From: Bacteroidaceae bacterium
GTDB taxonomy: Bacteria; Bacteroidota; Bacteroidia; Bacteroidales; Bacteroidaceae
DNA length: 64,000 bases
Assembly: GCA_017547385.1 (NCBI GenBank)
Contig: JAFYPU010000002.1
Location: forward strand, 25,999-89,998
Reading direction: 5' to 3'
The notes under the pieces were generated by a model. That model did no database searches and had not been told where the DNA came from. It worked only from the letters and a program-made list of their open reading frames with translations. This document shows positions 33,878 through 54,870 of this stretch, piece by piece. The stretch's first letter is position 1. Every line of letters begins with the position of its first letter. A program made the position numbers and the translations under genes.

Positions 33878-35512
33878 TTATGCAGGAGTATCCAATAGTG
33901 TACGCAATATCTGAATAAAATCATCAAGACCACCGGCAACATTCTTGGTGATGGCACGGTGCAATCTGACACGCGAGCGATAAACACTTTGACGATTTCG
34001 CTGCATCAGACCTGCAATTTCCTGTCCTGAAAATCCCAACAGAAACAACCAACACATACATAAATCTCGTTCTTTCAATTTCGGCAACAATTCATGTAAG
34101 CGCTTATTCCAACCCGGATAACGAATTTCAACTATTAATTGTAACCTCTCCCAATCAGCCACACTTGGAACCTGTTCCTTCTGTGCCTTAGAGTGCAGAT
34201 GGTCCAGAAACTGTGCATCTTCGCCTTTTTTCTCACCGCTCAGAAAGTTCTCCATCATGTCTTTCTGGTGTTCAATGATATTTTTCTCTTTCTGAAGCTG
34301 TAACAAAGTTTCTTCTTGTTGACAAAGAGAGCGATTACGTCTACGCAACAATTTAATCATTCGCAACATTAGCAGTATTAAAACGATGATTACAAGCACC
34401 GAACCAACCATTTTCCAACGAAAACGGGTGTTTTCCTCTTGCAAAGCCAATTTGGCTTTCAAATGCTCATTGTAACGGAACATACCCTCTATATGCGACA
34501 CACGTTCTTCCTCTTTTATTTTAGCCAAACTGTCAGACACTTTCATATAGGCCTCGGCACATTTCATGGATGCATCCATGTTCCCTTTTTGCCGATGCAA
34601 AAAATACAAACGCCGATATGAATTCTCCACTGTACATAATCTGTGGCCCGACAGAGCTTTCGTGTAATAATGTATGGCCGAATCAGCATCACCGCGATAC
34701 TCCCAATAGAATCCGAAATTATGAGCAGGAACTCCTGTGCCGGTATCGTCATAACTCTTAAGAAAAAGTGCTTCACGTTGCTCAACCGCAAAGGTATCGC
34801 CATACTGGATAAAATCTGAGACCTGTTCTCGAATACATGCTTTTTCTAATTTCAAAAATTCCGGATCCTTGCATATCAGTGCAAATGATTTGTCATAATA
34901 AATCTTAGCAGAATCCCTTTTTCCGTTAGCAGAATAAGAACTGCCCAATGCATGATACCAATGATACTGTACCGAGCTGTCGCATTTGGCAATATCCACC
35001 CGTTTTATCCACTCCAATTCCGTACTGTGATTATCTGTTTCACTTAATAAACCGGCCATTTGACATGCACAAGCATTGTAGAGCCACACTTCACAACGAC
35101 CGCCGGTCGTATCTGCCATCGAAAAGGCTTTTGTATACCATTCGATGGCTTGAGGCCAATCTTTCATATCCCGCTGCACACAACCCATATAATAATATGC
35201 TTTCACACGGTCGTTTTGTGAACCATGCCGGTCATAATAATTTACCAACCACTGAATCACACTGTCAGACGTATGCAAATCATAATTCTTATCATGAGCT
35301 TGTATCCGCAACAATTCCATTCGGGCACGTACCGCTTCCGGCAGATTGCGATGCTCCTTCTCGAAACATTCCAACATGTCTAATGCCTGAGCCGGATACT
35401 TATGTGATAACTCATCTGCTGCCTGCAGTTGCAATGGAAATTCTTCTCTTTCCGAACATGCCGACAAGAGACATACACACAACGAAAATACCACGAACCA
35501 GTGTTTAAGCAT
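33878..35512 (-). CDS. Membrane regulator: lipoprotein signal, TPRs, one span, cytoplasmic HTH
   Basis: 544 residues from the ATG at 35512. Lipoprotein signal with lipobox LSAC (Cys19); tetratricopeptide-like helices to about 350; one membrane span near 368-387 (VLVIIVLILLMLRMI) followed by a basic stretch; a coiled coil to about 430; a C-terminal LuxR/sigma-like HTH near 480-525 (ERDLCMCWLFLLGFSGQEIA, then RNRQSVYRSRVRLHRA). It looks like a one-component regulator that senses in the periplasm and binds DNA in the cytoplasm, a layout common in Bacteroidales. It is transcribed away from the accessory island, and the TTTAC array at 35685 lies between it and the next gene, so it is the best candidate to bind that array. 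Domain reading is solid; target is inferred. Confidence 0.8.
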   Translation of the reverse strand: MLKHWFVVFSLCVCLLSACSEREEFPLQLQAADELSHKYPAQALDMLECFEKEHRNLPEAVRARMELLRIQAHDKNYDLHTSDSVIQWLVNYYDRHGSQNDRVKAYYYMGCVQRDMKDWPQAIEWYTKAFSMADTTGGRCEVWLYNACACQMAGLLSETDNHSTELEWIKRVDIAKCDSSVQYHWYHALGSSYSANGKRDSAKIYYDKSFALICKDPEFLKLEKACIREQVSDFIQYGDTFAVEQREALFLKSYDDTGTGVPAHNFGFYWEYRGDADSAIHYYTKALSGHRLCTVENSYRRLYFLHRQKGNMDASMKCAEAYMKVSDSLAKIKEEERVSHIEGMFRYNEHLKAKLALQEENTRFRWKMVGSVLVIIVLILLMLRMIKLLRRRNRSLCQQEETLLQLQKEKNIIEHQKDMMENFLSGEKKGEDAQFLDHLHSKAQKEQVPSVADWERLQLIVEIRYPGWNKRLHELLPKLKERDLCMCWLFLLGFSGQEIAGLMQRNRQSVYRSRVRLHRAITKNVAGGLDDFIQILRTLLDTPA

Positions 35513-35614
35513 CATTGCACCTATCTTTCTCCTTTGTTTTATTATACTCAGAAAACGTTCCCTCAAGTATATCCTCATCTTATCAAGACCCGCCGAAAAC
35601 GTTTGTCGATGAAG

Positions 35615-35622
35615 CAAACTTA
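35615..35622 (-). promoter_or_regulatory. -7 box of the HTH lipoprotein gene
   Basis: TAAGTTTG on the minus strand, about 100 bases before the start codon. The TTTAC array starts about 63 bases further upstream, so the regulator might also control itself. Confidence 0.5.
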
Positions 35623-35785: not shown

Positions 35786-36184
35786 ATGAACAAAAACATT
35801 TTCGCATTCTGCTTTCTTATCGCCACAAGCGGTATTCCGGGAAATTCGGCCGAGGTAGATCCGATCGGCAGCAGTCCAATCGTCAACTTACAAGGCCAAC
35901 TCATCTGGCATCTGAACGATGATCCGAATAAGGACCTTATCCCTCGCACCACGTTCAACCTTCCGGTTGCCACACAAAAAGATAGGAATATAGTTTTTAC
36001 CACGACCAACAGTCTTTCCATTCCTTACTCTATCAGCCGGAACGACGAGCTAATAGAAAGAGGTACGCTTTTCTTATCTTCAACTGAAGAGAATGTTTTA
36101 TCCTTGGAACATTTGGAAGATGGGAATTATATTATCACCATCGATATCTTTGGACAGAGATACTATGCTGATATTTTAATATAA
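35786..36184 (+). CDS. Small secreted beta-rich protein (DUF3244-like)
   Basis: 132 residues with an N-terminal signal peptide (about the first 22 residues). The rest is beta-rich; the C-terminal part (SLSIPYSISRNDELIERG, then LEHLEDGNYIITIDIFG ending in RYYADI) has the 'gtyt-itI' ending of the small DUF3244-type immunoglobulin-like proteins of Bacteroidales. Function unknown. It stands alone after promoter A and before unit A and shares the promoter layout of the RiPP operon, so it is probably induced with it. No counterpart is present between promoters B and D. Confidence 0.65.
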   Translation: MNKNIFAFCFLIATSGIPGNSAEVDPIGSSPIVNLQGQLIWHLNDDPNKDLIPRTTFNLPVATQKDRNIVFTTTNSLSIPYSISRNDELIERGTLFLSSTEENVLSLEHLEDGNYIITIDIFGQRYYADILI

Positions 36185-36968: not shown

Positions 36969-39347
36969 ATGAAAAATTTGCCTATCAGTGTCTGCATGCC
37001 CATGTATAATGCATCACGATATCTACGTGAATGCATCGACAGCATATTGGCTCAGACTTTTACCGACTTTGAGCTACTCATTGTTGATGATGGTTCAACA
37101 GACGAAAGCGTTAAAATTGTGGAATCTTATCATGACCCACGTATCAGATTGATTAAGAACAAACACGACTATATCGCCTCGCTCAATCTCCTACTGAGCG
37201 AAGCCAAAGGCAAATATATCGCACGCATGGATGCTGACGATGTCATGTTGCCGGAGCGCTTAGCCATACAATATAAATATATGGAAGAACATCCGGAGGT
37301 GGATGTTATGGCAGGGGCTTTAAAATATATTGATGAGAGATTTGTTTTCACACCTGCTAAAGAAATATATGAATGCACTTTGGAACTAATGATGGAAGCG
37401 AATCTTGTCGCGAACCCCGCAAGTATTTTCAATCGGGAAAGTATACTCGAACATAGCATTAATTATGAAGAAGACTTTATTTATGCAGAGGACTATCGTT
37501 TTTGGACACGTATTCTAATGGAAGGACTCAAAATTCATATTATTCCAACTACTCTCATTAAATATAGATATTCAAACGCTCAAATTACATCTTGTCATCG
37601 TGATGAAATGTTTTCTAAAACTCATCAAGTACAAGAACATATAAGAACACATCTAGCAGTATCATACAACATTGGATATAAAATGCCCCAAATAGAAAAT
37701 CGGGGTAAACAATTAAGCATTATTATTCCATTTCTCAATGAAGGTGAAGAAGTTCTTTTAACTATTGAGAGCATCCGTAATACCATTAAAGATACTGCAG
37801 ATATTATTGTAATAAATGATTGTTCAATCGATGGTGTCAACTATCAAGAGATGGTCAAAGATTTGCAAGTTTATTACATACTTAACCGCGAACGAAAAGG
37901 AGTTGCAGCTTCACGTGATTTAGGAATTAAATTATGTAAAACTCCATATTTTCTTTTGTTGGATGCCCATATGCGTTTCTATGAAGAGGATTGGGCTATA
38001 AAAATTATAAATAAACTTATAGAAAACGAACGTCAGCTACTTTGTTGCCAAGGATTATTTCTCAGTAAAAGGAAAGATGGAACTATTATTTCTCAAGATA
38101 AAAGTTGTTGCTTTGGGGCTTTTATGCCATGCCTTAAAAATACTTATTTACCAGATATCAAATGGAACACCTTTGAGCAATCACCTAATGAATTGGAAGA
38201 AACAATACCTTTCGTTTTAGGGGCAGGCTACGCCGCAAGCTGCCAGTATTGGAAGTACTTACGAGGATTAGAGGGGTTAGAATACTATGGTTCTGACGAA
38301 GCATACATCAGCCTAAAAGTCTGGATGGAGGGAGGAAAATGTACATTATTAAAAAATGTTGTAATAGGACATATTTACAGAGAAGAAGCACCATACAAAC
38401 ATTATAATGTCGCCGAAGTTTTCAACTATTTATGGATCTCCCGACTTTTATTCTCTTCATTTTGGAAGTATGCAGCAGAGGCGGCAGCAATAGTTATAAA
38501 TAGGCCTCTATATCTTGAAGCAAATAAATTGTTCAAGAAAAAACAATCACAATTTAACGAACTAAAAAAATACTATAATAAAATCTTTACTAAAGATTTT
38601 ATAGATGTAATGCAGTATCATCAAAACATAAGGTTAAAGAATCTAGTGAGAATATCAGATACCACACTAAATTTGTTACCAAAAATAGCTATATTCTTAC
38701 AAAAGAATACACCACGCTATTATGGACTCTACAAGGGAAAAATGGGACATCTTATATGGTTTGAACACTATTCCCGATATTGCGACTGTAGTCTTTGGGA
38801 CGATCTTGCTTCTGATTTGTGGGAACAAATAGAACAAGCCATAAAAGAAGATTTTTTACCTTTAAATTTCGAAGAGGGTTTATTGGGTATCGGGTGGAGT
38901 ATTTTGTACTTGCATGAGAAGAAGTTTTTAGACGATTACCCTGAGACCATATTATCAAAAATTGACCAAAATGTAAATAAATGTAGTCCGCATAGATTAG
39001 AAGAAAATGATATCAAGGGACTGCTATGTTATTGTGCTGCCCGTTTAAAATACTCATTTAAAAGGAAAGAAAAGTTTGCGTGGAGTCAGAGCTTTATAGA
39101 GGAACTATTAATGTCCTCAAAGACTATAATTGAAAATAGCAACAACTCAGAAACAATCACTTTAGCTTTAATGCTTATAGATTTTATGGAAAATAAATAT
39201 GACTTAAGTGACTGGGAGCTATCATTAAGCAAATGTATAGACTTTAAGCAGACGTTCCCACAAAACGCCATGTATTGGGAAAGCGGACTATGTAATCCTG
39301 TAGCTTCAGTCTCTATGCTTACACTTTTATTAATTGAACAAAAATAA
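36969..39347 (+). CDS. Double GT2 glycosyltransferase with polypeptide GalNAc-T-like domain and LanC-like tail
   Basis: 792 residues from the ATG at 36969, directly before the first strand (LPISVCMPMYN). Domain 1, residues 4-235: GT2 with VDDGS (39-43) and DADD (88-91). Domain 2, residues 248-490: GT2 whose metal site reads D332-A-H334 (LLDAHMRF) plus His468 in GHIYR, and whose block GSDEAYISLKVWMEGG (441-456) matches the Gal/GalNAc-T motif of mucin-type polypeptide GalNAc-transferases. Tail, about 580-792: helical, with LanC-type glycine motifs (EEGLLGIGWSILYL, GLCNPVASVSML) but no visible zinc-binding Cys/His set. Visibly AT-rich. It overlaps or abuts the radical SAM gene. I infer peptide O-glycosylation of the precursor encoded two genes downstream; activity and sugar are untested. 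Confidence 0.8.
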   Translation: MKNLPISVCMPMYNASRYLRECIDSILAQTFTDFELLIVDDGSTDESVKIVESYHDPRIRLIKNKHDYIASLNLLLSEAKGKYIARMDADDVMLPERLAIQYKYMEEHPEVDVMAGALKYIDERFVFTPAKEIYECTLELMMEANLVANPASIFNRESILEHSINYEEDFIYAEDYRFWTRILMEGLKIHIIPTTLIKYRYSNAQITSCHRDEMFSKTHQVQEHIRTHLAVSYNIGYKMPQIENRGKQLSIIIPFLNEGEEVLLTIESIRNTIKDTADIIVINDCSIDGVNYQEMVKDLQVYYILNRERKGVAASRDLGIKLCKTPYFLLLDAHMRFYEEDWAIKIINKLIENERQLLCCQGLFLSKRKDGTIISQDKSCCFGAFMPCLKNTYLPDIKWNTFEQSPNELEETIPFVLGAGYAASCQYWKYLRGLEGLEYYGSDEAYISLKVWMEGGKCTLLKNVVIGHIYREEAPYKHYNVAEVFNYLWISRLLFSSFWKYAAEAAAIVINRPLYLEANKLFKKKQSQFNELKKYYNKIFTKDFIDVMQYHQNIRLKNLVRISDTTLNLLPKIAIFLQKNTPRYYGLYKGKMGHLIWFEHYSRYCDCSLWDDLASDLWEQIEQAIKEDFLPLNFEEGLLGIGWSILYLHEKKFLDDYPETILSKIDQNVNKCSPHRLEENDIKGLLCYCAARLKYSFKRKEKFAWSQSFIEELLMSSKTIIENSNNSETITLALMLIDFMENKYDLSDWELSLSKCIDFKQTFPQNAMYWESGLCNPVASVSMLTLLLIEQK

Positions 39348-39354
39348 CTACGAA

Positions 39355-40650
39355 ATGAAAAAATTCAGCAAGTACAATTTCTTTATTGACAATACAGTGA
39401 ATGTATTGTTGCATAACATTGCTAATGAACAGACTCTTGTTATGGATACTTCCATAGCAAAGCTAATTCAGAAGTACATAGAAAAAATAGACGAATTAGA
39501 AGCTATCCATCCTACATTATTCAATACCTTATTGGAACGAGAGATAATCATAGATAAAGATACAGATGAGGTTGCTAATATCATAACTAAATGGGAAAAG
39601 GCCGAAAGCTCCAATTCCAATTACAGTATAACGATTATTCCAACAATGGCATGTAACCTAAATTGTTGGTATTGTTATGAGGAGCATAAAGCTGGAGAAG
39701 TTTTACAAGAACCAACCTTGGATAAAATAAAAAAATACATCCTAAGTGTTATCACTAATCAAGATCTTCAGAATTTCAATATCGACTTCTTTGGAGGTGA
39801 ACCTTTGATCTGTTATACTAATGTGGTAAAACCTTTAATGGAATTTATCAAGGAGAATTGTACACAATATGGTATCAAATACTCAGTTCATTTTACAACA
39901 AACGCAGTTCTTCTAACCCCACAGATGGTAGAAGAGTTATTAAATTATACCCCCAATATTGCTTTTCAGATTACACTAGATGGCAATAAATGTATGCACA
40001 ATAGAGTACGTAGCACAAAAAATGGGAAGCCAACATATGATATTATAGTTAAAAATATAAATCTTCTGCTGAGAAAAAGAATTTTTGTCACTGTTCGTGT
40101 GAATTTCACAAAAGACAATATTGATAGCATAGTAGATATTATCGACACTTTTAGGGAGTTAGATAAAGAAGAGAAAACATACATTATTTTTGACTTTCAA
40201 CAAGTTTGGCAAGACAAACATAATGTTGAAGTTGTTGAAAAAATCGAAAAGATTGCCTTAAATTTCATGGAACAGGGGCTAAATGTCATGTGGAATACTT
40301 TGTATTCAAAGTATAGATGTTATGCCGAATATAGCAATAAAGTTGTTATCAACCATAATGGGGATGTATTTAAGTGTACAGCTCGAAATTTTAGGAGTAG
40401 CCAAAGAGAGGGAATCCTAACCGATAATGGAGAAATCTTATGGAATTCAAAGTTCTTTAAGCGAATGGATTTGAAAAATGGATTAAACGTTTGCAAGCAA
40501 TGTGAGATATTTCCAATATGTTTTGGAGGATGTTCTCAATTAAAATTAGAAGCAAGTAGCGAAAATACTTGCTTAAAAGGTTGGACAAAGAAAGAGAAAG
40601 AAAATTTTGTAGAAAAACGTCTCAAACAAAAACTTATCGTTAGGAAGTAG
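39355..40650 (+). CDS. Radical SAM/SPASM peptide maturase
   Basis: 431 residues from ATG 39355, 7 bases after the glycosyltransferase stop (an upstream ATG at 39334 overlaps that gene). N-terminal region of about 90 residues (precursor-binding or RRE-like, not verified). Radical SAM cluster motif C100-x3-C104-x2-C107 (CNLNCWYCYE), GGEP at 147-150, then a SPASM domain with Cys341, Cys380, Cys383, Cys389, Cys393 and Cys406 for auxiliary iron-sulphur clusters. Such enzymes install carbon-carbon, thioether or ether links in ribosomal peptides. It stands directly before the precursor gene, as expected of a RiPP maturase. The reaction type cannot be read from the sequence. Confidence 0.92.
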   Translation: MKKFSKYNFFIDNTVNVLLHNIANEQTLVMDTSIAKLIQKYIEKIDELEAIHPTLFNTLLEREIIIDKDTDEVANIITKWEKAESSNSNYSITIIPTMACNLNCWYCYEEHKAGEVLQEPTLDKIKKYILSVITNQDLQNFNIDFFGGEPLICYTNVVKPLMEFIKENCTQYGIKYSVHFTTNAVLLTPQMVEELLNYTPNIAFQITLDGNKCMHNRVRSTKNGKPTYDIIVKNINLLLRKRIFVTVRVNFTKDNIDSIVDIIDTFRELDKEEKTYIIFDFQQVWQDKHNVEVVEKIEKIALNFMEQGLNVMWNTLYSKYRCYAEYSNKVVINHNGDVFKCTARNFRSSQREGILTDNGEILWNSKFFKRMDLKNGLNVCKQCEIFPICFGGCSQLKLEASSENTCLKGWTKKEKENFVEKRLKQKLIVRK

Positions 40651-40691
40651 TATATACTTCATATATGTTTAACTTTTAAAATAAAAACAAA

Positions 40692-40973
40692 ATGAGAATT
40701 CAAAAAGCAAAACTTGTAGATCTCAGAGTTGAGATACCTACAATTGTGAAAGAAGCCGAGGGTGAACTCAGAGGAGGTTTCTGTGCTTTAGCTTCAACAG
40801 AAAGTGAGAATCCGTTAAGCAATATCCTATGTGATATTGAGGTTAATCTGAAGAACTGCAAATGTGGAGTGGTTACACCTCCCATTACAACTACGACAAC
40901 TACTACAACACCTTCTCCAACAGGTACAAGTAGTAATATGCAGGCCTTGCTTGGTGGAACTTTTCATTTCTAA
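40692..40973 (+). CDS. RiPP precursor peptide with GG leader and mucin-like Thr-rich tail
   Basis: 93 residues. Leader of 29 residues ending in ELRGG (Gly28-Gly29), the cleavage signal for C39 exporters. Predicted core of 64 residues: Cys at 31, 47, 56 and 58, then PPITTTTTTTTPSPTGTSS (63-81) and an end SNMQALLGGTFHF. The eight Thr in a row use three different codons (ACA, ACT, ACG), so the run is kept at protein level rather than made by simple repeat slippage. It resembles mucin O-glycosylation domains and pairs with the GalNAc-T-like enzyme of the same unit. 41 bases after the maturase; followed by a stem-loop. Role as precursor is strongly supported by context; modifications are inferred. 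Confidence 0.88.
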   Translation: MRIQKAKLVDLRVEIPTIVKEAEGELRGGFCALASTESENPLSNILCDIEVNLKNCKCGVVTPPITTTTTTTTPSPTGTSSNMQALLGGTFHF

Positions 40974-40982
40974 TTATTTGTC

Positions 40983-41011
40983 TTTGCAGGTGGGGATTCT
41001 CCACCTGCAAA
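40983..41011 (+). terminator. Stem-loop after the precursor gene (attenuator or mRNA stabiliser)
   Basis: TTTGCAGGTGG / CCACCTGCAAA, perfect 11-base stem with 7-base loop, 10 bases after the precursor stop. No T-run, so it probably reduces rather than ends transcription, or protects the upstream mRNA end. Confidence 0.65.
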
Positions 41012-41037
41012 TATCGAAATAGACAAAAGATCATATT

Positions 41038-43968
41038 ATGAAAAAGATTGTAAACTTCCTTTTGTTGCTATTCTTTGGTTTCTCTGCTTTTGCACAAGAC
41101 AAAAACATTCAATACATCTACGGAAATATCAACAATCGCTTGACAAAACATGCCATTACCGGAGCCAATGTTTTTCTGGAGAGGCCTGATGGAGTTGTTG
41201 TCGATTCAATCATAAATACACAAGTGCCCTTGGCATACGGTGGTGTTAATTATGAGTATTGCTTCGGTATTCCACGATTAGGCGGTTATTATGTCATCCG
41301 AGTGGAAGCAGACGGATATGAAACCGGATATCTTGCCATCGACAGCATTGCCGCAAGAGGGAGAACAAATGGTCTTCGTTACACAGGGGATATTCTCTTG
41401 AACAAAAAAATGAAGGAACAGCAACTGGGTGAAGCTGTCGTAAAAGCCACACGTATCAAAATTTATTCAAAAGGCGACACTTTGGTCTATAATGCAGATG
41501 CTTTCCAATTGGCTGAAGGATCAATGCTTGATGCCCTTATCAAGCAACTGCCGGGGGCTGAATTAAAAGATAATGGACGCATATTGGTCAATGGTAAACA
41601 AATCGAAAGTTTGCAACTCAATGGTGAAGATTTTTTCAGAGGGAACAATGAACTGATGCTTGACAATCTTCCCTCATACATGGTACAGAACATCAAAGTG
41701 TATGAGAAGACCGGAGAACTTTCTAGATTTGGAAGTAGGGATTTGGGAGATAAAACTTATGTCATGGATGTTCGGCTGAAACGACAATATAGTATTGGCT
41801 GGGTGGCCAACATTGATGGAGGCTATGGCACAGAAGACAGGTATATGGCACGCTTATTTGCCATGCGTTTCACACCTCAATCACGAATTTCGGTCTTCGC
41901 CAACTTCAATAACCTTAATGATAACCGTAAACCAGGAGAGGACAATGAATGGCGACCGGAAAATATGCCTAATGGCATTATAACAACAAAATACGGAGGG
42001 GTGGATTATCTTGTGAAAGACCGAAACGAACGGTTCAAATTGCAAGGAAGTGCAGAAATACGTCATTGGGACGCCACCTATCACTCTATCAATACCGGTG
42101 AAACCTTTCTTTCCGAAGGGAGCACGTGGAGCAAAGGAGAAAATTGGCAGCGGAGCAAGAATCTTCGCATCGGAACAAGTCATGATTTCCTCTTTTACAG
42201 TCCTGCGCAACCCGGCTATGGATTAGGAAAAATGGCAATCCAAATCAAACCTTCTTTCAATTATTACAGATGGGACAACTCAGGATATGGCGTTTCTGCC
42301 GAATTCAAGGAAAATCCCGAAAACTATGTCAGTGCCGGACTACTTGACAGCATTTACCGGCCGAATATAGGTGAACTGTTGCGTCATTTGGCTCTGAACC
42401 GTTATCTCTCAGAAAACAAGGAGAATGGACGGCAGTATAACGGAGGAGCTGAACTGACATGGCGATGGCGTCCCAACACAACCGATATGTTTGCCATTGC
42501 AAGTAGTATCAACTATTCTGACAATCGGAACGAACGTTTCGTTCAAGAAAGATATGATTATCCCTCCTCTCCGGATATGCCAATTGATTTTCGTAACAAA
42601 TGGATAAAAGACCACCCCAACAGAAATCTGCGTTATCATGTGGGAACCACCTATCTTTTACCATTTATGTCCAATGACATCACATTGCAACCGACATATA
42701 TTTTCGGACAGTCTTTTTCCCAACATGACTATGCTCTGCATCGGCTTGACCGATTGGATGGATGGGGAGAAAACACGACACACGTTATAGGCTCATTGCC
42801 TTCCGAAGCGGATTTTTTGTTCCACACCATTGATCCTCAAAACAGTTACATGCAGGAACAGACGGAAACCTGGCACGAAGTGGACATCAGGACCAGATGG
42901 AAAAAAGAAGAGAGCGATCGTAAATTGGAAGTAGTGTTTAACCTACCTTTGCGCTACACTCATTACCATCTGAAATATGCACGTTCCAACTATCATGGCA
43001 CATCACGAAGAAACACATTCTTCGTACAGCCCCAACTGAACATAACACATTCTTGGCACAACTTTCAACGTAGCATTTCTTTCAACTATCACCTCACCGG
43101 TGCAGCACCGGAAATGACCGACCTTCTCGAAATCGAAAGGAATGACAATCCTCTACACGTCTACAATGGTAATACCAACTTGAAAAATTCGCATACGCAC
43201 ACCTTGGGTTTGAATTACACCAACAACAGCACACGCAAACAGCGCACATTCGGATTGTCGGCAGGTTACACCATCAAGCAAGATGCCATAGCCTGGGGAT
43301 ATTCTTATACCCCCCAAACCGGTGTGCGATATTACCAACCATACAATATTGATGGAAACTACCTGATGCAGGGTAACATCAACTACTCCATGCCACTTGA
43401 CAAGAAACGCCGTTTCACTTTCTTCACCAACACGTATGGGGCATTCAGACATGGTGTGGATATGCTCTCTATCACCGGAGAAACTCCCCAAAAGAGTTCT
43501 GTCATAAACACTTCGCTAAACGAAACGCTAAAGCTGAGCTATCGAATCGGGAATACGCAGATTGGGGTCAAAGGTGCATTGTCTTGGGGAAATGCACGCA
43601 GCGAACGAACTGATTTTGAAACATTCAGTGTTTACGATTTCAACTATGGGCTGACCGCCCTCAGTCGGCTATTTTGGGATATTGAGGTGTCTACGGATCT
43701 TTCCATCTATAGCCGCAGAGGATACGGAGATGCATCATACAACTCCAACGACCTCGTATGGAATGTACGATTGTCTAAGCATATTCCCAAAATCGATCTG
43801 ACCGTCTACATCGATGGCTTTGACCTTCTGCACCAACTTTCCAATATCACTCACTCCATCAACTCGCAAGGACGTACCGAGACCTACAGAAATGTTATCC
43901 CACGCTACTTTATGTTTCACTTGGTCTATAAGTTATATAAACAGCCCAAAAAGAGGCCGGGGGGTTGA
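41038..43968 (+). CDS. Outer-membrane beta-barrel protein 1 (TonB-receptor-like)
   Basis: 976 residues. Signal peptide (MKKIVNFLLLLFFGFSAFAQ); a carboxypeptidase-regulatory-like beta domain (about 25-130); a plug-like domain with QLGEAVVKATRIKIYSKGD and LDALIKQLPGAELKDNGR; then a long run of amphipathic strands ending in an aromatic strand (MFHLVYKLYKQ). It belongs with the TonB-dependent-receptor-like barrels (outer membrane protein beta-barrel family) often seen in Bacteroidetes peptide clusters. No clear TonB box or SusD partner. Paralogue of the next gene. I infer a role in passing the mature peptide across the outer membrane, or in binding it. Confidence 0.8.
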   Translation: MKKIVNFLLLLFFGFSAFAQDKNIQYIYGNINNRLTKHAITGANVFLERPDGVVVDSIINTQVPLAYGGVNYEYCFGIPRLGGYYVIRVEADGYETGYLAIDSIAARGRTNGLRYTGDILLNKKMKEQQLGEAVVKATRIKIYSKGDTLVYNADAFQLAEGSMLDALIKQLPGAELKDNGRILVNGKQIESLQLNGEDFFRGNNELMLDNLPSYMVQNIKVYEKTGELSRFGSRDLGDKTYVMDVRLKRQYSIGWVANIDGGYGTEDRYMARLFAMRFTPQSRISVFANFNNLNDNRKPGEDNEWRPENMPNGIITTKYGGVDYLVKDRNERFKLQGSAEIRHWDATYHSINTGETFLSEGSTWSKGENWQRSKNLRIGTSHDFLFYSPAQPGYGLGKMAIQIKPSFNYYRWDNSGYGVSAEFKENPENYVSAGLLDSIYRPNIGELLRHLALNRYLSENKENGRQYNGGAELTWRWRPNTTDMFAIASSINYSDNRNERFVQERYDYPSSPDMPIDFRNKWIKDHPNRNLRYHVGTTYLLPFMSNDITLQPTYIFGQSFSQHDYALHRLDRLDGWGENTTHVIGSLPSEADFLFHTIDPQNSYMQEQTETWHEVDIRTRWKKEESDRKLEVVFNLPLRYTHYHLKYARSNYHGTSRRNTFFVQPQLNITHSWHNFQRSISFNYHLTGAAPEMTDLLEIERNDNPLHVYNGNTNLKNSHTHTLGLNYTNNSTRKQRTFGLSAGYTIKQDAIAWGYSYTPQTGVRYYQPYNIDGNYLMQGNINYSMPLDKKRRFTFFTNTYGAFRHGVDMLSITGETPQKSSVINTSLNETLKLSYRIGNTQIGVKGALSWGNARSERTDFETFSVYDFNYGLTALSRLFWDIEVSTDLSIYSRRGYGDASYNSNDLVWNVRLSKHIPKIDLTVYIDGFDLLHQLSNITHSINSQGRTETYRNVIPRYFMFHLVYKLYKQPKKRPGG

Positions 43969-44063: not shown

Positions 44064-46916
44064 ATGAGACGTAAGTACTTTTTATTATTTCTCGTTCTCT
44101 CTTCTTGCGTATCTTTTGCGCAAACCGAGCGCGACAGCATCACTTTATTGGGGAGGGTCATGGACAGTTTCACTTACGAAATGTTGAAAGGTGTACGCAT
44201 GGAGATACTACGCTCCGACAGTTCTACCTTCCACGAAGAGTATATAGAAGACATCTCCAATGGATATGGATTTCCTCACAACGTGCAAGTATTTAATTGC
44301 CCTCGCACCGATTTGATTCTTCGTTTCAGCATGGGCGGCTATATCACTCAATGCATCAATCTGAGCAAGGGCGACATCGGACGCAGAGAGAAACGACTGA
44401 ATTTCGGAGACGTGCTGTTGGTAAAGAAACGTAAATCTCGAGAGGTACAATTGGGAGAAGCCATGGTCACAACTTCGAAAATAAGGATGGTCGTGAAAGG
44501 CGACACCTTGATATATGATGCCGATGCCTTCCAATTGGCAGAAGGTTCGATGCTGGACGGACTAATAAAGATGCTACCGGGCTTTGAACTGAGAGATGGA
44601 AGAATCCGTGTGAACGGACAATATGTCAGCGAATTGTTGGTGAACGGTGAGAACTTTTTCAAAGGTGATCCACGTGTGGCGCTCGAAAATCTTCCGGCTT
44701 ATATGGTTAACAAGGTGAAAGTGTATCGAAAAGAGCACGAATATAGCTACATCACCCAGGAGAAGAACAAAGAAGAATTACCCTTGGTGGTGGATGTCAA
44801 CCTGAAGCGTGAATATTCCGTGGGATGGGTAGCCAATGCCGGTGTCGGCTACGGGCTTGAAGACCGCTATATGGCCCGTCTTTTCGGATTGGGATTTACT
44901 GACTATTCACGTCTGGCTGTGTATGGCAATGCCAACAATACCAACGATATGGGGGAACCGGGTGTTTCCGGGGAATGGAATCCGCAAGGAGCGGCTTCCG
45001 GCCTTACGGAAATGCAGAAAGGTGGGTTGGAAGCCTTGATAAAGGACAGACAGCAAATCTGGAAATACACCGGAAACATCAAGATTCTCCATCAAGACAA
45101 CGATGGCCGAAGCGTAACCTCCACAGAGACTTTTCAACCCGGGCTGAGTAGCAACACTTACGCACGTTCTCGGAATGAGAGACTCGGTCATAACTTCCGA
45201 ATACAATCATCGCATCAATATGAATACAAAAAAGCCGGAGGATTTGTCAAACTGGAAGGGAGTGGTGCATACCAACATCGTAAGAACACTGTCGAATATC
45301 TTGGAGCTGAATTCTCCGCCGATCCGAAAGATGCTTATCGCGCAGCATCATTAGACAGTATCTTCTTCTACCCAAGCGACAGACTGACTGCCATGCTTGT
45401 CAACAGCCGGAGAGACCGCACAAAAGATAATGCCGATGTGTGGAACGGACATATCAACATGAATGGTTTTGTGTCCGTCCCTAAAACCCCCGACTATATC
45501 AACATTGCAGCCGGAGTGAATGTTGAGCGACAAAAGAATTATTACTTTTCGGATTACAATTTGCACTACGGACAAGCCTCCATGGGAGGGCTCTCTGATG
45601 ACAATCGTCATCGCTATGCCTTTTCTCCTTCGTTGTCTATCAACGCACATGCCCGTATCTCATACACCTATTGTCCCGATTGGGTACATATCCGCGCTTA
45701 TTACGAAATAACCGAGCGCTACTGTGATAGCGACCGCTCATATTATCGACTGGACCGATTGGGCAATGATGCACCGGATTTTGGTGAATTACCTTCCACT
45801 ACAGCAGCTTTGATGAGTTGTCTGGATGCCCCTAACACATATACATCACGAGTCAATACGTTGACCAATAAAGTGGGAACGGAATGGCTAATCTGGATTC
45901 CGGGAAAATTGCCCAGCCATCGAATAGAGCTGAAACCGGAAGTGGAGTGGAGAACCGACCATCTGAAATACCACCGTGATGCTCTGAACACTCGGCCCGG
46001 GCGCAGCGAATGGGCTTTCACGCCTAGTGCATCATGGGGCTTCGAGGACTGTTATATTACCTATACACTCAATCATTCATATCCGGACCTTATCAGTTTG
46101 CTTGACTATACCGACACTGCCGACCCATTGAACTTGGTCAAAGGGAACCCCGATTTGAAACGTAGCACCACCCACAAAGTAAATCTGCAACGGAGTTTCA
46201 ATGATTACAAGAAAGACAGGTCTGTCCAAATTACCGGCAATTGGTGGAAAACTCATAATGCCATTTCACATGCCATGACCTATGATGAGGCCACGGGTGT
46301 ACGAACCTATATGCCTCGAAATGTAGAAGGAAACTGGGGTGCTGATTTTTCCACCGACTACAAACAGCCCTTGGGCAAAAAACGGCAAATTATTCTTTAT
46401 TCCAACACCCTTGCAAATTATCGCAACTGCGTGGATTATGTGTCGGAACTCAGCACGGTACGCAACCTTACGCTCAGAGAAAATCTGCGTCTGAATCTGC
46501 GTATCAAGAAGTGCATCTTTGATGTGAATGTCGGAATGAAGTATCTTCATGCTGCCTCCGAGCAAGAAAGTTTCAACACTATCAATGGCTTCGACCTAAA
46601 ATATGGTTTGTCGGCACAAATACCATTGCCGGGCGGTTTGGCTCTAAGTGCCGATGCTACCCTCTATCACCGTACCGGGTATACCGACAACAGCATGAAT
46701 GGGTGCAACTTTGTGGCCAATGCCCGTTTAAGCAAAACATTCCTAAACGGACGATTGGGATTGACGCTTGATGCCTTTGATATTTTTCACGGTATTGACA
46801 ACATCATGAGAGTTGTCAACGCGCAGGGTGTTACGGAGACCTGGCACAATTCATTACCCTCCTACGCCATGTTGCAAATTGTTTATAAATTCAGCAAACA
46901 GCCTAAGAAGAAGTGA
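44064..46916 (+). CDS. Outer-membrane beta-barrel protein 2 (paralogue)
   Basis: 950 residues with signal peptide (MRRKYFLLFLVLSSCVSFAQ; a Cys is present but the end reads SFAQ). Same architecture as the preceding gene and clear colinear similarity: GDTLIYDADAFQLAEGSMLD, then LLVNGENFFKGDP and SVGWVANAGVGYGLEDRYMA correspond to matching blocks there. C-terminus MLQIVYKFSKQPKKK. The two may form a pair or have split functions. The 95-base gap before it is AT-rich and holds no terminator. The next gene overlaps its stop. Confidence 0.8.
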   Translation: MRRKYFLLFLVLSSCVSFAQTERDSITLLGRVMDSFTYEMLKGVRMEILRSDSSTFHEEYIEDISNGYGFPHNVQVFNCPRTDLILRFSMGGYITQCINLSKGDIGRREKRLNFGDVLLVKKRKSREVQLGEAMVTTSKIRMVVKGDTLIYDADAFQLAEGSMLDGLIKMLPGFELRDGRIRVNGQYVSELLVNGENFFKGDPRVALENLPAYMVNKVKVYRKEHEYSYITQEKNKEELPLVVDVNLKREYSVGWVANAGVGYGLEDRYMARLFGLGFTDYSRLAVYGNANNTNDMGEPGVSGEWNPQGAASGLTEMQKGGLEALIKDRQQIWKYTGNIKILHQDNDGRSVTSTETFQPGLSSNTYARSRNERLGHNFRIQSSHQYEYKKAGGFVKLEGSGAYQHRKNTVEYLGAEFSADPKDAYRAASLDSIFFYPSDRLTAMLVNSRRDRTKDNADVWNGHINMNGFVSVPKTPDYINIAAGVNVERQKNYYFSDYNLHYGQASMGGLSDDNRHRYAFSPSLSINAHARISYTYCPDWVHIRAYYEITERYCDSDRSYYRLDRLGNDAPDFGELPSTTAALMSCLDAPNTYTSRVNTLTNKVGTEWLIWIPGKLPSHRIELKPEVEWRTDHLKYHRDALNTRPGRSEWAFTPSASWGFEDCYITYTLNHSYPDLISLLDYTDTADPLNLVKGNPDLKRSTTHKVNLQRSFNDYKKDRSVQITGNWWKTHNAISHAMTYDEATGVRTYMPRNVEGNWGADFSTDYKQPLGKKRQIILYSNTLANYRNCVDYVSELSTVRNLTLRENLRLNLRIKKCIFDVNVGMKYLHAASEQESFNTINGFDLKYGLSAQIPLPGGLALSADATLYHRTGYTDNSMNGCNFVANARLSKTFLNGRLGLTLDAFDIFHGIDNIMRVVNAQGVTETWHNSLPSYAMLQIVYKFSKQPKKK

Positions 46917-46921
46917 AAAAG

Positions 46922-47764
46922 ATGGAACGCAAACTGATCTTCGATATCGGATTTCATAAAGGAGAAGACACACGCTATTATCTCTACCGGGGATATGACG
47001 TGGTGGCAGTGGACGCCGCTCCCGACATGATTGCGCAAGGCAAACGGATGTTTAGCAAGGAAATGGACGAAGGACGACTGACGTTGCTCAATTATATCGT
47101 AGCAAGAGAAAAGGACACTTTTCCCGAGTTCTATATCAGTGAAAATTCTGAATGGAGCTCCATGCGGCGCGAAATAGCCGAAAGGAATGGTCGGCAGGCC
47201 AAGGAGGTGATACGTCTCACCGGAAAAAGTCTACGGGAGTTATTCAACGAACATGGCGTTCCGTACTATTGCAAAATCGACATCGAGGGGAACGACATCA
47301 TAGCACTTGAAAGTTTGATTACCTGTGAGGAACTGCCGGCTTTCATTTCCGTGGAGACGGAATGTCTGGGCGATAACTCCGCTCCCGAAGAACATACTTT
47401 TCTCACCCTCGATTTGCTCCATCGATTGGGGTATCGGCACTTCAAGTTGGTGGATCAACAAACACTCACGGTGTTGGATAAGCATTCGTTTTACGGAAAC
47501 ACAATGGTCGATCCATGGAAGACTAATTCTGAATACGCCCGCGACATTTTGCATGTTTCGGCTTCGGGCACTCACTTTTCGGAGTTTTTCGAGGGATGTA
47601 GCGGGCCATTCGGAAATGATTTGGCCGGACGGTGGGTTGGCTACGAAGAGGCCAAACGGCTGATTGATTTTCACAGCCGAGAACACCGAAAGCACGATCT
47701 GCCGGTTTGGGCTTTCTGGTGCGACTGGCATGCCGCATTGCCCCATTCGGTTTCCGATGGATGA
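46922..47764 (+). CDS. FkbM-family SAM-dependent methyltransferase
   Basis: 280 residues from ATG 46922; a GTG at 46913 overlapping the previous stop by 4 bases is an alternative start and would couple translation. SAM-binding motif I is DIGFHKGEDT (8-17), followed by VVAVDAAPD; KIDIEGND further on is the family's conserved block. FkbM enzymes methylate hydroxyl groups, often on sugars or polyketides. In this setting it could methylate a sugar on the glycosylated peptide, which is inference. Cytoplasmic, no signal peptide. Confidence 0.85.
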   Translation: MERKLIFDIGFHKGEDTRYYLYRGYDVVAVDAAPDMIAQGKRMFSKEMDEGRLTLLNYIVAREKDTFPEFYISENSEWSSMRREIAERNGRQAKEVIRLTGKSLRELFNEHGVPYYCKIDIEGNDIIALESLITCEELPAFISVETECLGDNSAPEEHTFLTLDLLHRLGYRHFKLVDQQTLTVLDKHSFYGNTMVDPWKTNSEYARDILHVSASGTHFSEFFEGCSGPFGNDLAGRWVGYEEAKRLIDFHSREHRKHDLPVWAFWCDWHAALPHSVSDG

Positions 47765-47796
47765 ATGTATGCATATTCTTTTCTCAACTGACAACA

Positions 47797-49977
47797 ATGC
47801 GCTTTACTCGACAATTTGACCAAATGGATTGTGGGCCGGCATGCATTCGTATGGTAGCTTCGCACTATGGCAAAGATTATCCGCTTGCTTATTTACGCTC
47901 ACTCTCCCACTTGACACGTGAGGGAGTGAGCGTGGCCGGAATACGCCATGCCTTGAAAGAAATCGGAGCCGAAAGTGCTTCGTTTGAAATGTCATTGGAA
48001 CAGCTCTCGGAGAAGTGTCCGATGCCGGCCATTTTGCATTGGGAGCAAAACCATTTTGTGGTGCTGGAACGCATCGGACGGGCAAAATTTAGCAGAGAAA
48101 GAAAGTTTCACGTAGCCAATCCCGCTTATGGCAGGTCCGTTTTCTGTGAAAAAGAATTTGTGCGATATTGGCTTAATGGCGAAAAAGGTGTGGTGATTGC
48201 CATCGAACCAACGGATGAGTTCTTCTCTCGGAAACCGGTCAAGGAAAAACATAGTCTGCGGCACTTCGCCCGAAGATATGTCTGGCCATTCAGATGGGAA
48301 ATGTCGCAATCGGCACTCGGAATGGGATTTGGATTGGTGCTCTCGCTCATAACTCCATTCTTGACACAAGCCATGGTGGACGATGGCATCGGCATGCGGG
48401 ACATGAACATGATTGTCTGCATACTGATGGCACTGGTAGCCCTTTTCTTCGGAACTTTTTCCATGGGGCTTATCTCTGCCTGGGTCAGCCTCTACATGAC
48501 GACTCGCATCAACATCAACATTCTGCGCGATTATCTCACAAAATTGTTATGTCTGCCCATGACTTTCTTTGAGACCAAAAGCGTGGGCGACTATCAACAA
48601 CGGCTTGGCGACCATGGACGATTGCAGGATTTTGTCACCTATAACACATTGCAGACGGCATTCGCTCTGTTTTCCGTTCCTTTCTATCTGGCCATCATCG
48701 GATGGTATAGTCCGGTCATTCTGGCTGCCTATATCTTTCTGACAGCCCTAAGCACCGGATGGATGGTGTGGTTCTTTCGCCGAAGAAAGGCATTGGATTA
48801 TGAACAGTTCAAGATACAGGCCGAAAACCGAAACAAACAGTTTGAACTGCTGTCGGGCATCACTGACATCAAGTTGAACAGCTATGAAACTTACAAACTG
48901 AAAGAGTGGCAGGAGCTGCAGGAGAGACAATACGCGATGAGCAAAAAGGTGTTGAAGTTGGGACAGGTGCAGAACACCGGTTTCACCCTTATCGGACAAT
49001 TGCGCAATATCTTTATCACCTGTTGGATAGCAGCCGAAGTGGTGGAAGGCAATCTCACACTGGGGATGATGATGAGTATCTCCGGAATTATCGGATTGGT
49101 GAACGGACCTCTGTCGGGACTGATTGGTTTTCTCGAACAATTCCAAGATGCAAAGATTAGTTTGGAACGCTCAGAGGAAGTGCACTTATGTCCGGGAGAG
49201 GATGCAGAAACGCTACAACATGTTTCTACCGAAAAAATCCGGGACATCATGATAAAAAATCTTTCATTTTCTTATACCGGAGATATCGGAGAACCCGTTT
49301 TGAAGAACATCTCTCTGAGCATTCCGGCCGGGAAGATGACGGCTATTGTTGGGGAAAGTGGCAGCGGAAAGACCACTTTGATGAAACTATTGCTGAAATT
49401 CTATGAACCCACTGCCGGAGAAATAAGTTGGGGTGGGAAGAACATTAACGAACTCTCGGCTCATTCCATTCGCAGGGCTTCCGGCATCGTGATGCAAGAC
49501 AACTTCTTGTTCTCCGATACATTAAAGAGAAATATCATCATGGGGGAGGCAGAGGATGACGACCGGCTGCAACAGGCCATAGAGGATGCTTGTCTCAGCG
49601 ACTACGTAAAGAAACAGCCTTTGGGGGTACACACGAAGGTGGGAAGCGAGGGCGTGGGAGTCAGCGGAGGAGAAAAACAACGAATCATGCTGGCTCGCGC
49701 CATCTACAAGCAACCACTCTATCTGATGATGGACGAAGCCACAAGTTCGCTCGACGCAGAGAACGAAAGAATGATTACGAATAATCTTAACAGGATCTTT
49801 GCCGGACACACACGCATTGTCATCGCTCACCGGCTTTCCACCGTGCGAACGGCTGACAACATTATTGTTTTGTGGAAAGGAGAGGTGGTGGAAAACGGTA
49901 CACATTCCGAACTGGTGGCAGCCCATGGTTATTATTACAACCTGATACGAAACCAATTGGAATTGGCAAAAACATGA
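47797..49977 (+). CDS. C39 peptidase-containing ABC transporter (bacteriocin-type exporter)
   Basis: 726 residues from ATG 47797, which starts the C39 domain directly; the longer frame is in the overlap with the preceding gene. N-terminal C39 peptidase: Cys12 (QMDCGPACI) and His86 (WEQNHFVVL); the usual catalytic Asp is Asn108 (HVANPAYG). Then six membrane helices and an ABC ATPase with Walker A GESGSGKTT (519-527), signature VSGGEKQR (622-629) and LMMDEATSSLD. Such proteins cut the leader after the double glycine and export the core. The precursor two units upstream in the same operon has ELRGG. Its stop overlaps the next start (ATGA). Confidence 0.93.
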   Translation: MRFTRQFDQMDCGPACIRMVASHYGKDYPLAYLRSLSHLTREGVSVAGIRHALKEIGAESASFEMSLEQLSEKCPMPAILHWEQNHFVVLERIGRAKFSRERKFHVANPAYGRSVFCEKEFVRYWLNGEKGVVIAIEPTDEFFSRKPVKEKHSLRHFARRYVWPFRWEMSQSALGMGFGLVLSLITPFLTQAMVDDGIGMRDMNMIVCILMALVALFFGTFSMGLISAWVSLYMTTRININILRDYLTKLLCLPMTFFETKSVGDYQQRLGDHGRLQDFVTYNTLQTAFALFSVPFYLAIIGWYSPVILAAYIFLTALSTGWMVWFFRRRKALDYEQFKIQAENRNKQFELLSGITDIKLNSYETYKLKEWQELQERQYAMSKKVLKLGQVQNTGFTLIGQLRNIFITCWIAAEVVEGNLTLGMMMSISGIIGLVNGPLSGLIGFLEQFQDAKISLERSEEVHLCPGEDAETLQHVSTEKIRDIMIKNLSFSYTGDIGEPVLKNISLSIPAGKMTAIVGESGSGKTTLMKLLLKFYEPTAGEISWGGKNINELSAHSIRRASGIVMQDNFLFSDTLKRNIIMGEAEDDDRLQQAIEDACLSDYVKKQPLGVHTKVGSEGVGVSGGEKQRIMLARAIYKQPLYLMMDEATSSLDAENERMITNNLNRIFAGHTRIVIAHRLSTVRTADNIIVLWKGEVVENGTHSELVAAHGYYYNLIRNQLELAKT

Positions 49978-53432: not shown

Positions 53433-54074
53433 ATGAAGTACCATTGTTTATTCCTCCTCATGATGCTTTTGTCCTTCCGGATGCAGGCACAAACTTCAAC
53501 TTGCGCTTCAGACACCCTTCTGTTCCGTGAGTGCTTTGGTGGGAATATCCTACAAACTAACCTGGGATTGATGCAACAAGCTTACGATTCTATTGATGCT
53601 CCCAGAAAGGTCCTCCCATCTTATCCGGGCTTCTCATGGCGAACAACATCTGATGGTTCAGTCGATTATAGTCGAATGTCTCCATCCTATTCAAGAGGAG
53701 AAGCCACAGGTTTCAATCGTAGAATTTGCAGAGCGTTAAAACAGGCTTACATTAGCCAACATCCCAAGGGCGAGAACCTTGACTCTGTGAAAGCAGATTT
53801 GGTGGCACGCTTACAACGTTTTGACACACTGGCCACCACCAAACCGTTGTTCTATACGGACATTCATGGGAAGTACAAAGGTAACATTGTTCGCTATGTG
53901 AACGACTTGTACGAAAAATCCATGATGGGAAACCTGAAACGCCTGGAATACTTCTTCCACAACCCACGCAAGAAACTTATCCAAAAAGACCTCGGCTACC
54001 AATTCTCCCTCAGCCTGGCTCTCTACGAGCAGTGGATTGCACAAGTACGGAACGGAGAGGTGGAGGAAGAATGA
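53433..54074 (+). CDS. Secreted protein of unknown function, tandem family member 1
   Basis: 213 residues with a signal peptide ending at MQAQ. The mature part starts TSTCASDTLLFRECF, shared with the next two genes, and ends GYQFSLSLALYEQWIAQ followed by VRNGEVEEE. Two conserved Cys near the mature N-terminus could form a disulfide. Middle part (about residues 50-100) is unlike its paralogues. No domain recognised. Lies 34 bases after the transglutaminase-like gene, in one transcription unit. Confidence 0.7.
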   Translation: MKYHCLFLLMMLLSFRMQAQTSTCASDTLLFRECFGGNILQTNLGLMQQAYDSIDAPRKVLPSYPGFSWRTTSDGSVDYSRMSPSYSRGEATGFNRRICRALKQAYISQHPKGENLDSVKADLVARLQRFDTLATTKPLFYTDIHGKYKGNIVRYVNDLYEKSMMGNLKRLEYFFHNPRKKLIQKDLGYQFSLSLALYEQWIAQVRNGEVEEE

Positions 54075-54870
54075 ATGTTTAACACTTAACCTATCATAGT
54101 CATCATGAAGAAATACTATTTAGCTTGTTTGGCCTTGCTATTGCCTCACCTGATGCAGGCACAAACTTCAACTTGCGCTTCGGACACCCTTTTGTTCCGT
54201 GAGTGCTTCAGCGATTCCATTCTAAAAACGGATATAGAATTAATGCGTAAAGTTTACAACAATATCTTGGGAGGTCCTAGGGTTAACAGGGAGTATTATT
54301 TAGGACTTGAGTATCTTGAACCTGTTGTAATCGGCAGAATCTATTCAGATCGGGGATTTTGGCTTCCGTCATCGATTTCTCATATCATTAAAACCACCAA
54401 TTTGGATAAAACCTTGCGTAACGAACTCCTTCAAGATTTCGAAGAACAACATCCACGCAATTGGAATGCAGAAGAAGCAAAGACTGTTTTGGTCAGACGC
54501 TTGCAACACTTTGATTCGTTATCCACCAACAAACCTTTGTTCTTTTCTACCATTTACACCGATTATGGGGGAGACATCGCAAAATATGTGGATGCGCTAT
54601 ACAATACTTCCATCATGGGAAACAAGAAAACGTTGCGCAACTTTATGCGAAAGCCCTCCACCATTGCCATTCAGAACGACCTCGGCTATCAGTTCTCCCT
54701 CAGCCTGGCACTCTACGAACAATGGATTGCACAGGTGCGAAATGGGGAAGCGGAAGAATGAATATTTAACACTTAACCTATCATAGTCATCATGAAGAAA
54801 TACTATTTAGCCTGTTTGGTCTTGCTATTGCCTCACCTGATGCAGGCACAAACTTCAACTTGCGCTTCAG
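54070..54870 (+). repeat. Tandem duplication of secreted-protein genes
   Basis: About 150 bases (54070-54225 and 54757-54912), covering the spacer, signal peptide and conserved N-terminus, are nearly identical, as are the 3' ends of the genes. The central parts are not. Confidence 0.75.
54105..54761 (+). CDS. Secreted protein of unknown function, tandem family member 2
   Basis: 218 residues, signal peptide MKKYYLACLALLLPHLMQAQ. N-terminal block through about residue 45 and C-terminal half are close to members 1 and 3; residues about 50-95 differ. Intergenic sequence before it (54068-54104) recurs before member 3, which marks a recent tandem duplication. No recognised domain. Confidence 0.7.
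   Translation: MKKYYLACLALLLPHLMQAQTSTCASDTLLFRECFSDSILKTDIELMRKVYNNILGGPRVNREYYLGLEYLEPVVIGRIYSDRGFWLPSSISHIIKTTNLDKTLRNELLQDFEEQHPRNWNAEEAKTVLVRRLQHFDSLSTNKPLFFSTIYTDYGGDIAKYVDALYNTSIMGNKKTLRNFMRKPSTIAIQNDLGYQFSLSLALYEQWIAQVRNGEAEE

Follow-up and report, generated by a model that had tools for sequence, protein, structure and literature searches.

Among ribosomally synthesized and post-translationally modified peptides (RiPPs), Bacteroidales loci that combine a radical S-adenosylmethionine (SAM) enzyme, a LanC-like protein and a glycosyltransferase (GT) have been described with double-glycine (GG) precursors, a peptidase-containing ATP-binding cassette (ABC) transporter and an outer-membrane protein; the LanC-like proteins carry no zinc motif, and the glycosyltransferases were screened as a peptide S-glycosyltransferase, GlyS (PMC10352776). 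To judge by its accessible text, that work is the nearest prior account of the operon analysed here, which lies in a 64,000-nt window (the whole stretch of DNA examined, part of a 2.35 Mb draft genome; coordinates below are positions in this window). From position 36969 the operon encodes, in order, a glycosyltransferase, a radical SAM/SPASM enzyme, a precursor peptide, two outer-membrane β-barrel proteins, an FkbM methyltransferase and a C39 ABC exporter, with which the cluster ends at ~49977. We consider it probable that this is a RiPP operon in which the second domain of the GT would O-glycosylate a Thr/Ser tail of the precursor and the radical SAM enzyme would act on its Cys part. The simplest reading of the pairing is an O-glycosylated radical SAM RiPP.

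Parts of the operon also resemble other described systems. The polypeptide N-acetylgalactosaminyltransferases (GalNAc-Ts) of CAZy family GT27 (GalNAc-T10, T9, T1 and T2) share with the GT a catalytic domain that can be aligned throughout, the DxH motif, the His of GH(I/V)(Y/F)R, a Gal/GalNAc-T-like motif and Ser/Thr/Pro-rich acceptors, the last as candidates only here. Glycocins (sublancin, glycocin F, enterocin F4-9) are RiPPs glycosylated by a GT2-type glycosyltransferase, a role that is predicted in the window; we know of no glycocin with a radical SAM maturase. Ranthipeptides and related Cys-rich radical SAM RiPPs (CefA/CefB, PapA/PapB, SCIFF) have maturases of the same SPASM group and Cys-repeat cores (in locus L068 a Cys occurs at every fifth residue). 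By contrast with these, the window's radical SAM enzyme scores below the family cut-offs given below, its precursors match no model, and a GT and a Thr/Pro tail are added.

In the GT (36969..39347, + strand, ATG at 36969, 792 aa), two GT2-fold domains precede a LanC-like domain at the C-terminus. Domain 2 (residues ~248-490) contains W399 and Y440-G-S-D-E444 in addition to the features that the sequence-only reading had picked out, D332-x-H334, His468 in GHIYR and GSDEAYISLKVWMEGG, all of which are present in the reading frame. When the single domain-2 sequence was compared with the Protein Data Bank (PDB), GalNAc-T10 ranked first over the whole domain (E 5.4e-15), and the strongest hit from outside the GalNAc-T group was 6h1j (E 5.2e-5 over 91 residues). 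With a 33-member domain-2 profile, each of the first 16 rows was either a GalNAc-T or 8uhv, to which the PDB gives just the name Glycosyl transferase, again over the whole domain (E 4e-24 to 5.2e-14), and the remaining 15 rows, other GT2 enzymes, covered only the first 84-137 positions at E 9.8e-12 or weaker. The profile alignment to the GalNAc-Ts spans the Gal/GalNAc-T motif and GHIYR. Domain 2 is thus, by sequence, a relative of the polypeptide GalNAc-Ts over its whole length and not an ordinary polysaccharide GT2, as had been supposed. Residues D332, H334, R336, W399, G418, Y440, E444 and H468 are invariant across the 33 aligned sequences. In GalNAc-Ts the metal is bound by the DxH motif and a further His, according to the available portions of two papers (PMC9996832, PMC6994419), and this GT27 feature, catalytic-domain homology with DxH and a third His, is present in domain 2 at the level of sequence alignment rather than structure.

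The precursor (40692..40973, + strand, 93 aa) is the second gene after the GT, and the sequence-only reading was correct in assigning it a double-glycine leader and a tail: it contains EGELRGG|F and PPITTTTTTTTPSPTGTSS. Its core runs from FCALAS to NCKCG with 4 Cys, followed by a Thr/Pro/Ser tail and a hydrophobic end, and we regard PPITTTTTTTTPSPTG as a candidate acceptor peptide for domain 2. T/S/P residues are more tightly clustered in the core than in shuffles of the same residues (0/2000 shuffles, p 0.0005). The eight-Thr run is encoded by mixed ACA, ACT and ACG codons; a microsatellite or trinucleotide expansion was therefore rejected as its origin. Across 26 related precursors the leaders end in E-G-x-L-x-G-G (E in 25/26, G in 23/26, L at -4 in 26/26, GG in 26/26), with Phe next in the cores used, and both features of double-glycine peptides, the GG leader and a C39 ABC exporter, are present. 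The cores contain Cys, often as Asn/Cys repeats, with complete or near-complete conservation of two Cys columns, and continue into tails that vary in wording and are alike in composition (TTTTTTTT, PTPTPTPTPTG, TTPTTPTTPT, STSTSTSTS), often ending in a hydrophobic or aromatic segment. The 26 precursors matched no curated family in NCBIfam or Pfam (one touches CefA at E 0.07), and the window precursor matched no PHROGs family.

The operon recurs in Bacteroidales. Its nearest named record, L057, is from a Bacteroidaceae metagenome-assembled genome (RGIG4240, roe deer colon) and has a 99% identical GT. Species genomes were scanned as well, which yielded 55 loci: 28 of type 1, with the operon arrangement of the window (L057-L083 and L103, L057 being the window's twin), 21 of type 2 (Bacteroidales loci with domain 2 alone, with a LanC-like part, or otherwise arranged) and six from alphaproteobacteria. 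A precursor-like GG open reading frame (ORF) or a C39 exporter was present in 18 of the 21 type-2 loci. Among 301 genomes of the window's own family searched with the GT at 1e-10, 26 matched: 20 have domain 2, the match being weak or partial in two of these, and six have the LanC-like part only. Of 395 class-wide genomes searched at E 1e-40, only the window's own matched, and the evidence for spread outside the family comes from the species-genome scan. Locus L090, recorded as Roseburia, holds a Bacteroidales-type cluster, and the label looks wrong.

Precursors beside the GT were compared with precursors of related radical SAM enzymes that lack it. The 36 type-1 precursors came from 27 loci (the window, L058-L070, L072-L083 and L103) and were chosen by position from lists of GG ORFs; L057, whose precursor is identical to the window's, L071, which ends before the precursor, and the L161 precursors were left out. 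The 15 controls were taken from 14 of 20 loci retrieved for related radical SAM enzymes; L142, L143, L145, L149 and L154 (no assignable GG ORF) and L161 (type 1) were excluded, and the second GG ORF of L153 was set aside together with distant GG ORFs of L145, L152 and L154. The T/S/P-rich tail anticipated for homologous loci is indeed common: a 12-residue window with at least six T/S/P was found in 33/36 precursors beside the GT and 5/15 controls, and one with at least five T/P in 29/36 and 2/15, respectively. These thresholds were fixed after the sequences had been read; threshold-free rank tests of type 1 against controls gave ~1e-6 with either window, 3e-5 with the T+P fraction and 0.0014 with the fraction of T only. 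When residues were shuffled within each core, p <0.05 was reached in 22/36 type-1 cores and 1/15 controls. Although the control cores are shorter (median 42 residues versus 54-90 in 26 type-1 cores), the contrast held against the seven controls of at least 45 residues (p 1.9e-4) and for length-matched random segments of the 26 type-1 cores (median p 0.0012). The control cores also contain Cys; hence the presence of Cys follows the radical SAM enzyme, and that of the tail follows the GT. The pairing of enzyme and tail is real and conserved.

Several observations weigh against assigning O-glycosylation of the tail to domain 2. In the domain itself, Tyr440 replaces the key Trp of WGGE (YGxD/E for WGGE), which is W331 in human T2 according to the part of PMC6994419 available, and Arg336 stands at the Glu of DSHCE (DAHMR for DSHCE); both changes are invariant in 23/23 sequences. 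A ricin-like lectin domain was looked for in the GT C-terminus and no lectin family matched, the region being LanC-like instead. With no lectin domain and two active-site changes, the enzyme, which is moreover bacterial and has extra GT2 and LanC-like domains, cannot be placed in GT27. Among the precursors, three of the 36 type-1 cores (L072b, L077a and L081a) fall below six T/S/P and four (L059a, L066, L067b and L080) lie exactly at six; of 17 type-2 cores, hand-picked at one or two per locus, five are below the T/S/P threshold and eight below the T/P threshold, and any strict requirement for a Thr run is contradicted by L086, L087 and L098. In the six alphaproteobacterial loci (L104-L106, L108, L109 and L111), nothing matched the radical SAM enzyme, barrel or exporter of the window. 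The glycopeptide proposed from the sequence alone is thus supported in part, by the GalNAc-T-like domain and its pairing with the tail, and is qualified by these domain-2 relatives, some of which neighbour precursors that lack a Thr-rich tail and some of which have no match to the other cluster genes nearby. The type-1 radical SAM enzymes, moreover, form one clade (SH-aLRT 96 in a quick tree, n=43), so the 36 type-1 precursors are not independent, and the contrast between enzyme and tail lies between clades and is one evolutionary event, not 36. Finally, the model of the SunS S-glycosyltransferase matches 10 of 49 whole GT proteins at 1e-3 or better, and 9 of 10 domain-1 pieces of relatives at the same level (best 5e-11, over ~90 residues).

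The last observation bears on a glycocin-like alternative, which we judge unlikely, in which the GT, perhaps through domain 1, would place sugar on the core Cys and the Thr/Pro tail would be a mere spacer. All 36 type-1 cores carry Cys, and domain 2 is paired with Cys/Gly-repeat cores poor in Thr in L094 and L097. The same two loci give a second, small contrast between precursors with and without the enzyme: both lie close to L146, which is without domain 2, in the radical SAM tree, and their S/T/P fractions, for one core each, are 0.26 and 0.25 versus 0.15 in L146 (a second L097 core has 0.11). In the accessible text on glycocins these peptides are O- and/or S-glycosylated, with ThgS modifying Ser and Cys (PMC12457901), and enterocin F4-9 is described in the part available as carrying O-linked N-acetylglucosamine on Ser37 and Thr46 (PMC8620827). 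The 10/49 whole-protein matches arise because domain 1 touches the SunS model, a weak resemblance that leaves S-glycosylation some probability. Against it, the Cys cores persist in the 15 controls without the GT. The SunS model matched 0/17 domain-2 proteins or pieces, and SunS as the closer match for domain 2 was rejected on this count; neither domain of the window matched TIGR04195 (SunS) at E 0.01, and a TIGR04195 scan of 21 genomes gave none above cut-off. Domain 1 (residues ~5-230) is an ordinary GT2 domain with D88-x-D90, a motif that 17 of the 19 domain-1 sequences, the window's among them, retain and that reads N-x-D in the other two. Its best NCBIfam models are of the EpsE and TuaG types (exopolysaccharide and teichuronic GT2), which score higher than SunS, and all SunS matches of domain 1 in relatives are far below the 350-bit cut-off. 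Glycocins differ from the present system in these respects and in that the tail is the candidate site here.

The type-2 precursors also bear on the choice of acceptor. In L093 a Cys-free, T/S/P-rich precursor begins 8 bases past the last codon of the domain-2/LanC gene, in L100 a T/S/P-rich precursor with one Cys begins 55 bases past it, and in L101 a T/S/P-rich core with 0 Cys lies ~3 kb from domain 2. No CX3CX2C frame of at least 150 aa was found in the L093, L100 and L101 stretches, that of L093 being only 6.3 kb. These cores, T/S/P-rich with 0, 1 and 0 Cys, favour hydroxyl over thiol acceptors. Because 10 of the 49 relatives match the SunS model, the published GlyS loci may include relatives of the window's enzyme; in its accessible portion that account describes no GalNAc-T relationship, Thr/Pro tail or GT-LanC fusion (PMC10352776).

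It is rather improbable that the GT instead makes a cell-surface glycan or exopolysaccharide and merely sits in the operon with no action on the peptide. Domain 1 does resemble the exopolysaccharide and teichuronic enzymes, and the six alphaproteobacterial domain-2 relatives lie in places without a matched RiPP gene; yet the GT is fused to a LanC-like domain, a maturase and precursor adjoin it in type-1 loci, half a radical SAM enzyme is fused to it in L049/L070, and it co-occurs with the T/P tail. Least probable of all, an unmodified tail that serves as a flexible linker holding a cyclised head off the cell surface or barrel would suit tails that share composition rather than alignable sequence and often end in hydrophobic or aromatic residues, but would leave unexplained the association with a GalNAc-T-like enzyme and the absence of the tail from most controls.

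The radical SAM/SPASM peptide maturase (39334..40650, + strand, 438 aa) has CX3CX2C at C107/C111/C114 and seven conserved C-terminal Cys. None of the NCBIfam models nearest to it (CefB, TIGR04463 and geopeptide) reaches its cut-off, nor does PapB (119 of 340 bits). Among solved proteins its closest relative is 5wgg (E 6.9e-26), which we take to be CteB, a ranthipeptide maturase. In the 301 genomes there were 20 radical SAM matches above 540 bits, 19 of them adjoining domain 2 and the other lying on a contig of 4.4 kb; the next score, 420 bits, is without domain 2, and three lower, partial matches (G026, G239 contig 6 and G011) adjoin it. The radical SAM reading frames are broken in the L066 and L079 assemblies, through decay or assembly error, and L069 showed no match to the enzyme within its 13.8 kb stretch.

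The LanC-like C-terminal domain of the GT (residues ~560-792) corresponds to Pfam LANC_like, which matched 28 of 49 GT family members; the window's own sequence was not matched. No Cys or His is conserved in at least 70% of 23 aligned rows, and a working cyclase, with the zinc ligands of LanC, was rejected for this domain. In L049:3055-5442 and L070:8977-11364, both from contig CALUJL010000014, the second half of a radical SAM enzyme is fused to the GT where the LanC-like domain would otherwise be, and the fusion gene is followed by a core-2/I-branching-like protein with a LanC-like look (a similarity not taken from the Pfam scan). Core-2/I-branching-like enzymes (PF02485) were found in L059 and L077 (E 2.7e-22 and 4.9e-22). 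As PF02485 is also common in polysaccharide loci, these genes are supporting only.

For O-glycosylation of the tail, we propose the following sequence of events. The precursor would be made with its double-glycine leader, and the radical SAM/SPASM enzyme would modify the Cys part of the core, probably forming thioether links as in ranthipeptides, to judge from its enzyme family. Domain 2, with a metal held by DxH and His, may then move sugar from a UDP-sugar onto Thr/Ser of the Pro/Thr-rich tail; domain 1, as a DxD GT2 enzyme, and in some loci also a core-2/I-branching-like enzyme, could extend that sugar. The LanC-like domain, in which no metal site is conserved, probably serves to hold the peptide. 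The C39 exporter would cleave after GG, leaving an N-terminal Phe, and the outer-membrane barrel adjoining the precursor would carry the glycopeptide out. Gene order, the relationship of the domains, the invariant residues and the association of enzyme and tail were computed directly; all catalytic steps, the identity of the sugar and of the residues that accept it, the part played by domain 1 and the route of export are predictions from them. The window genome encodes GalE above cut-off, as do 8/14 control genomes.

A stronger version, which we hold as a tentative possibility and doubt on balance, is a bacterial mucin-type pathway, in which domain 2 would start an α-O-N-acetylhexosamine on the Thr tail, domain 1 and the core-2/I-branching-like enzymes would build it out, and radical SAM thioethers would fold the head. 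If so, the GalNAc-T fold would have a prokaryotic peptide-modifying branch. The suggestion that the product mimics mucin is unsupported. If O-glycosylation of the tail is borne out, these loci would provide a bacterial enzyme family related to the animal GalNAc-Ts that initiate mucin glycosylation, together with candidate peptide partners, and a new class of O-glycosylated radical SAM RiPP in Bacteroidota of ruminant and other guts; no description of a GalNAc-T-like enzyme in a RiPP cluster was found in the open full-text literature, most subscription papers and preprints lying outside that search. Such enzymes would bear on the origin of the GalNAc-T family and might be used as soluble bacterial catalysts to glycosylate peptides rich in Thr and Pro. 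Cultured carriers include Paraprevotella xylaniphila and Prevotellamassilia timonensis, presumably both human isolates.

The cluster is larger than the sequence-only reading had it: the GT, radical SAM enzyme and precursor stood, and it had not picked up the LanC-like domain, the Cys-containing portion of the core, both outer-membrane proteins, the methyltransferase, the C39 exporter and a hairpin. The hairpin (40977..41027, + strand) lies immediately 3' of the precursor's stop codon, with z -5.9 for the segment 40974-41037, and recurs in related loci. Twenty spacers from 19 loci were folded (L063, L065, L066, L069, L070, L072, L073 and L078 being left out), and 18/20 contain a strong hairpin in this position (z -3.4 to -6.0), the exceptions being L081 and the second spacer of L103. 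The hairpin sequences are unrelated; the element probably keeps precursor mRNA in excess over barrel mRNA.

Directly 3' of the precursor, as in relatives, is an outer-membrane β-barrel protein (OMP_b-brl_3; 41038..43968, + strand), for which no solved relative was found by sequence; its paralogue, a second outer-membrane β-barrel protein, follows at 44064..46916 (+ strand). In type-1 loci the gene after the last precursor is an outer-membrane barrel in 27/27 cases where it is visible (L071 ends earlier). Three precursor-barrel pairs stand in tandem in L072:4548-13448, so barrel and peptide look cognate, and the repeated pairs in L072 and L103:5602-14102 share one GT and one radical SAM enzyme. 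The FkbM-family methyltransferase (46913..47764, + strand), matched within loci L057-L111 only in the near-identical L057, makes methylation of the product possible. The last gene encodes the C39 peptidase-containing ABC exporter (47707..49977, + strand; PF03412, E 5.6e-28).

The alphaproteobacterial relatives, from Kordiimonas and others, are stand-alone domain-2 proteins, with DAHMR in the four aligned and an apparently common neighbourhood, gene neighbours having been read for L106 alone. Divergent from the operon and upstream of it, the window encodes a tetratricopeptide repeat (TPR) protein whose end weakly resembles sigma-70 region 4 (33878-35617); a TPR-like family, to which this protein may belong, occurs in 11/46 loci. 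Small secreted proteins that look alike by eye lie upstream of the clusters in the window (35786-36184), L074:8512-8901, L149:7911-8258 and L110:618-1010, those of the window and L074 matching no Pfam family. Beyond the exporter, at 53433-55466, are three tandem paralogous secreted proteins (the first without a Pfam match) of ~213-224 aa.

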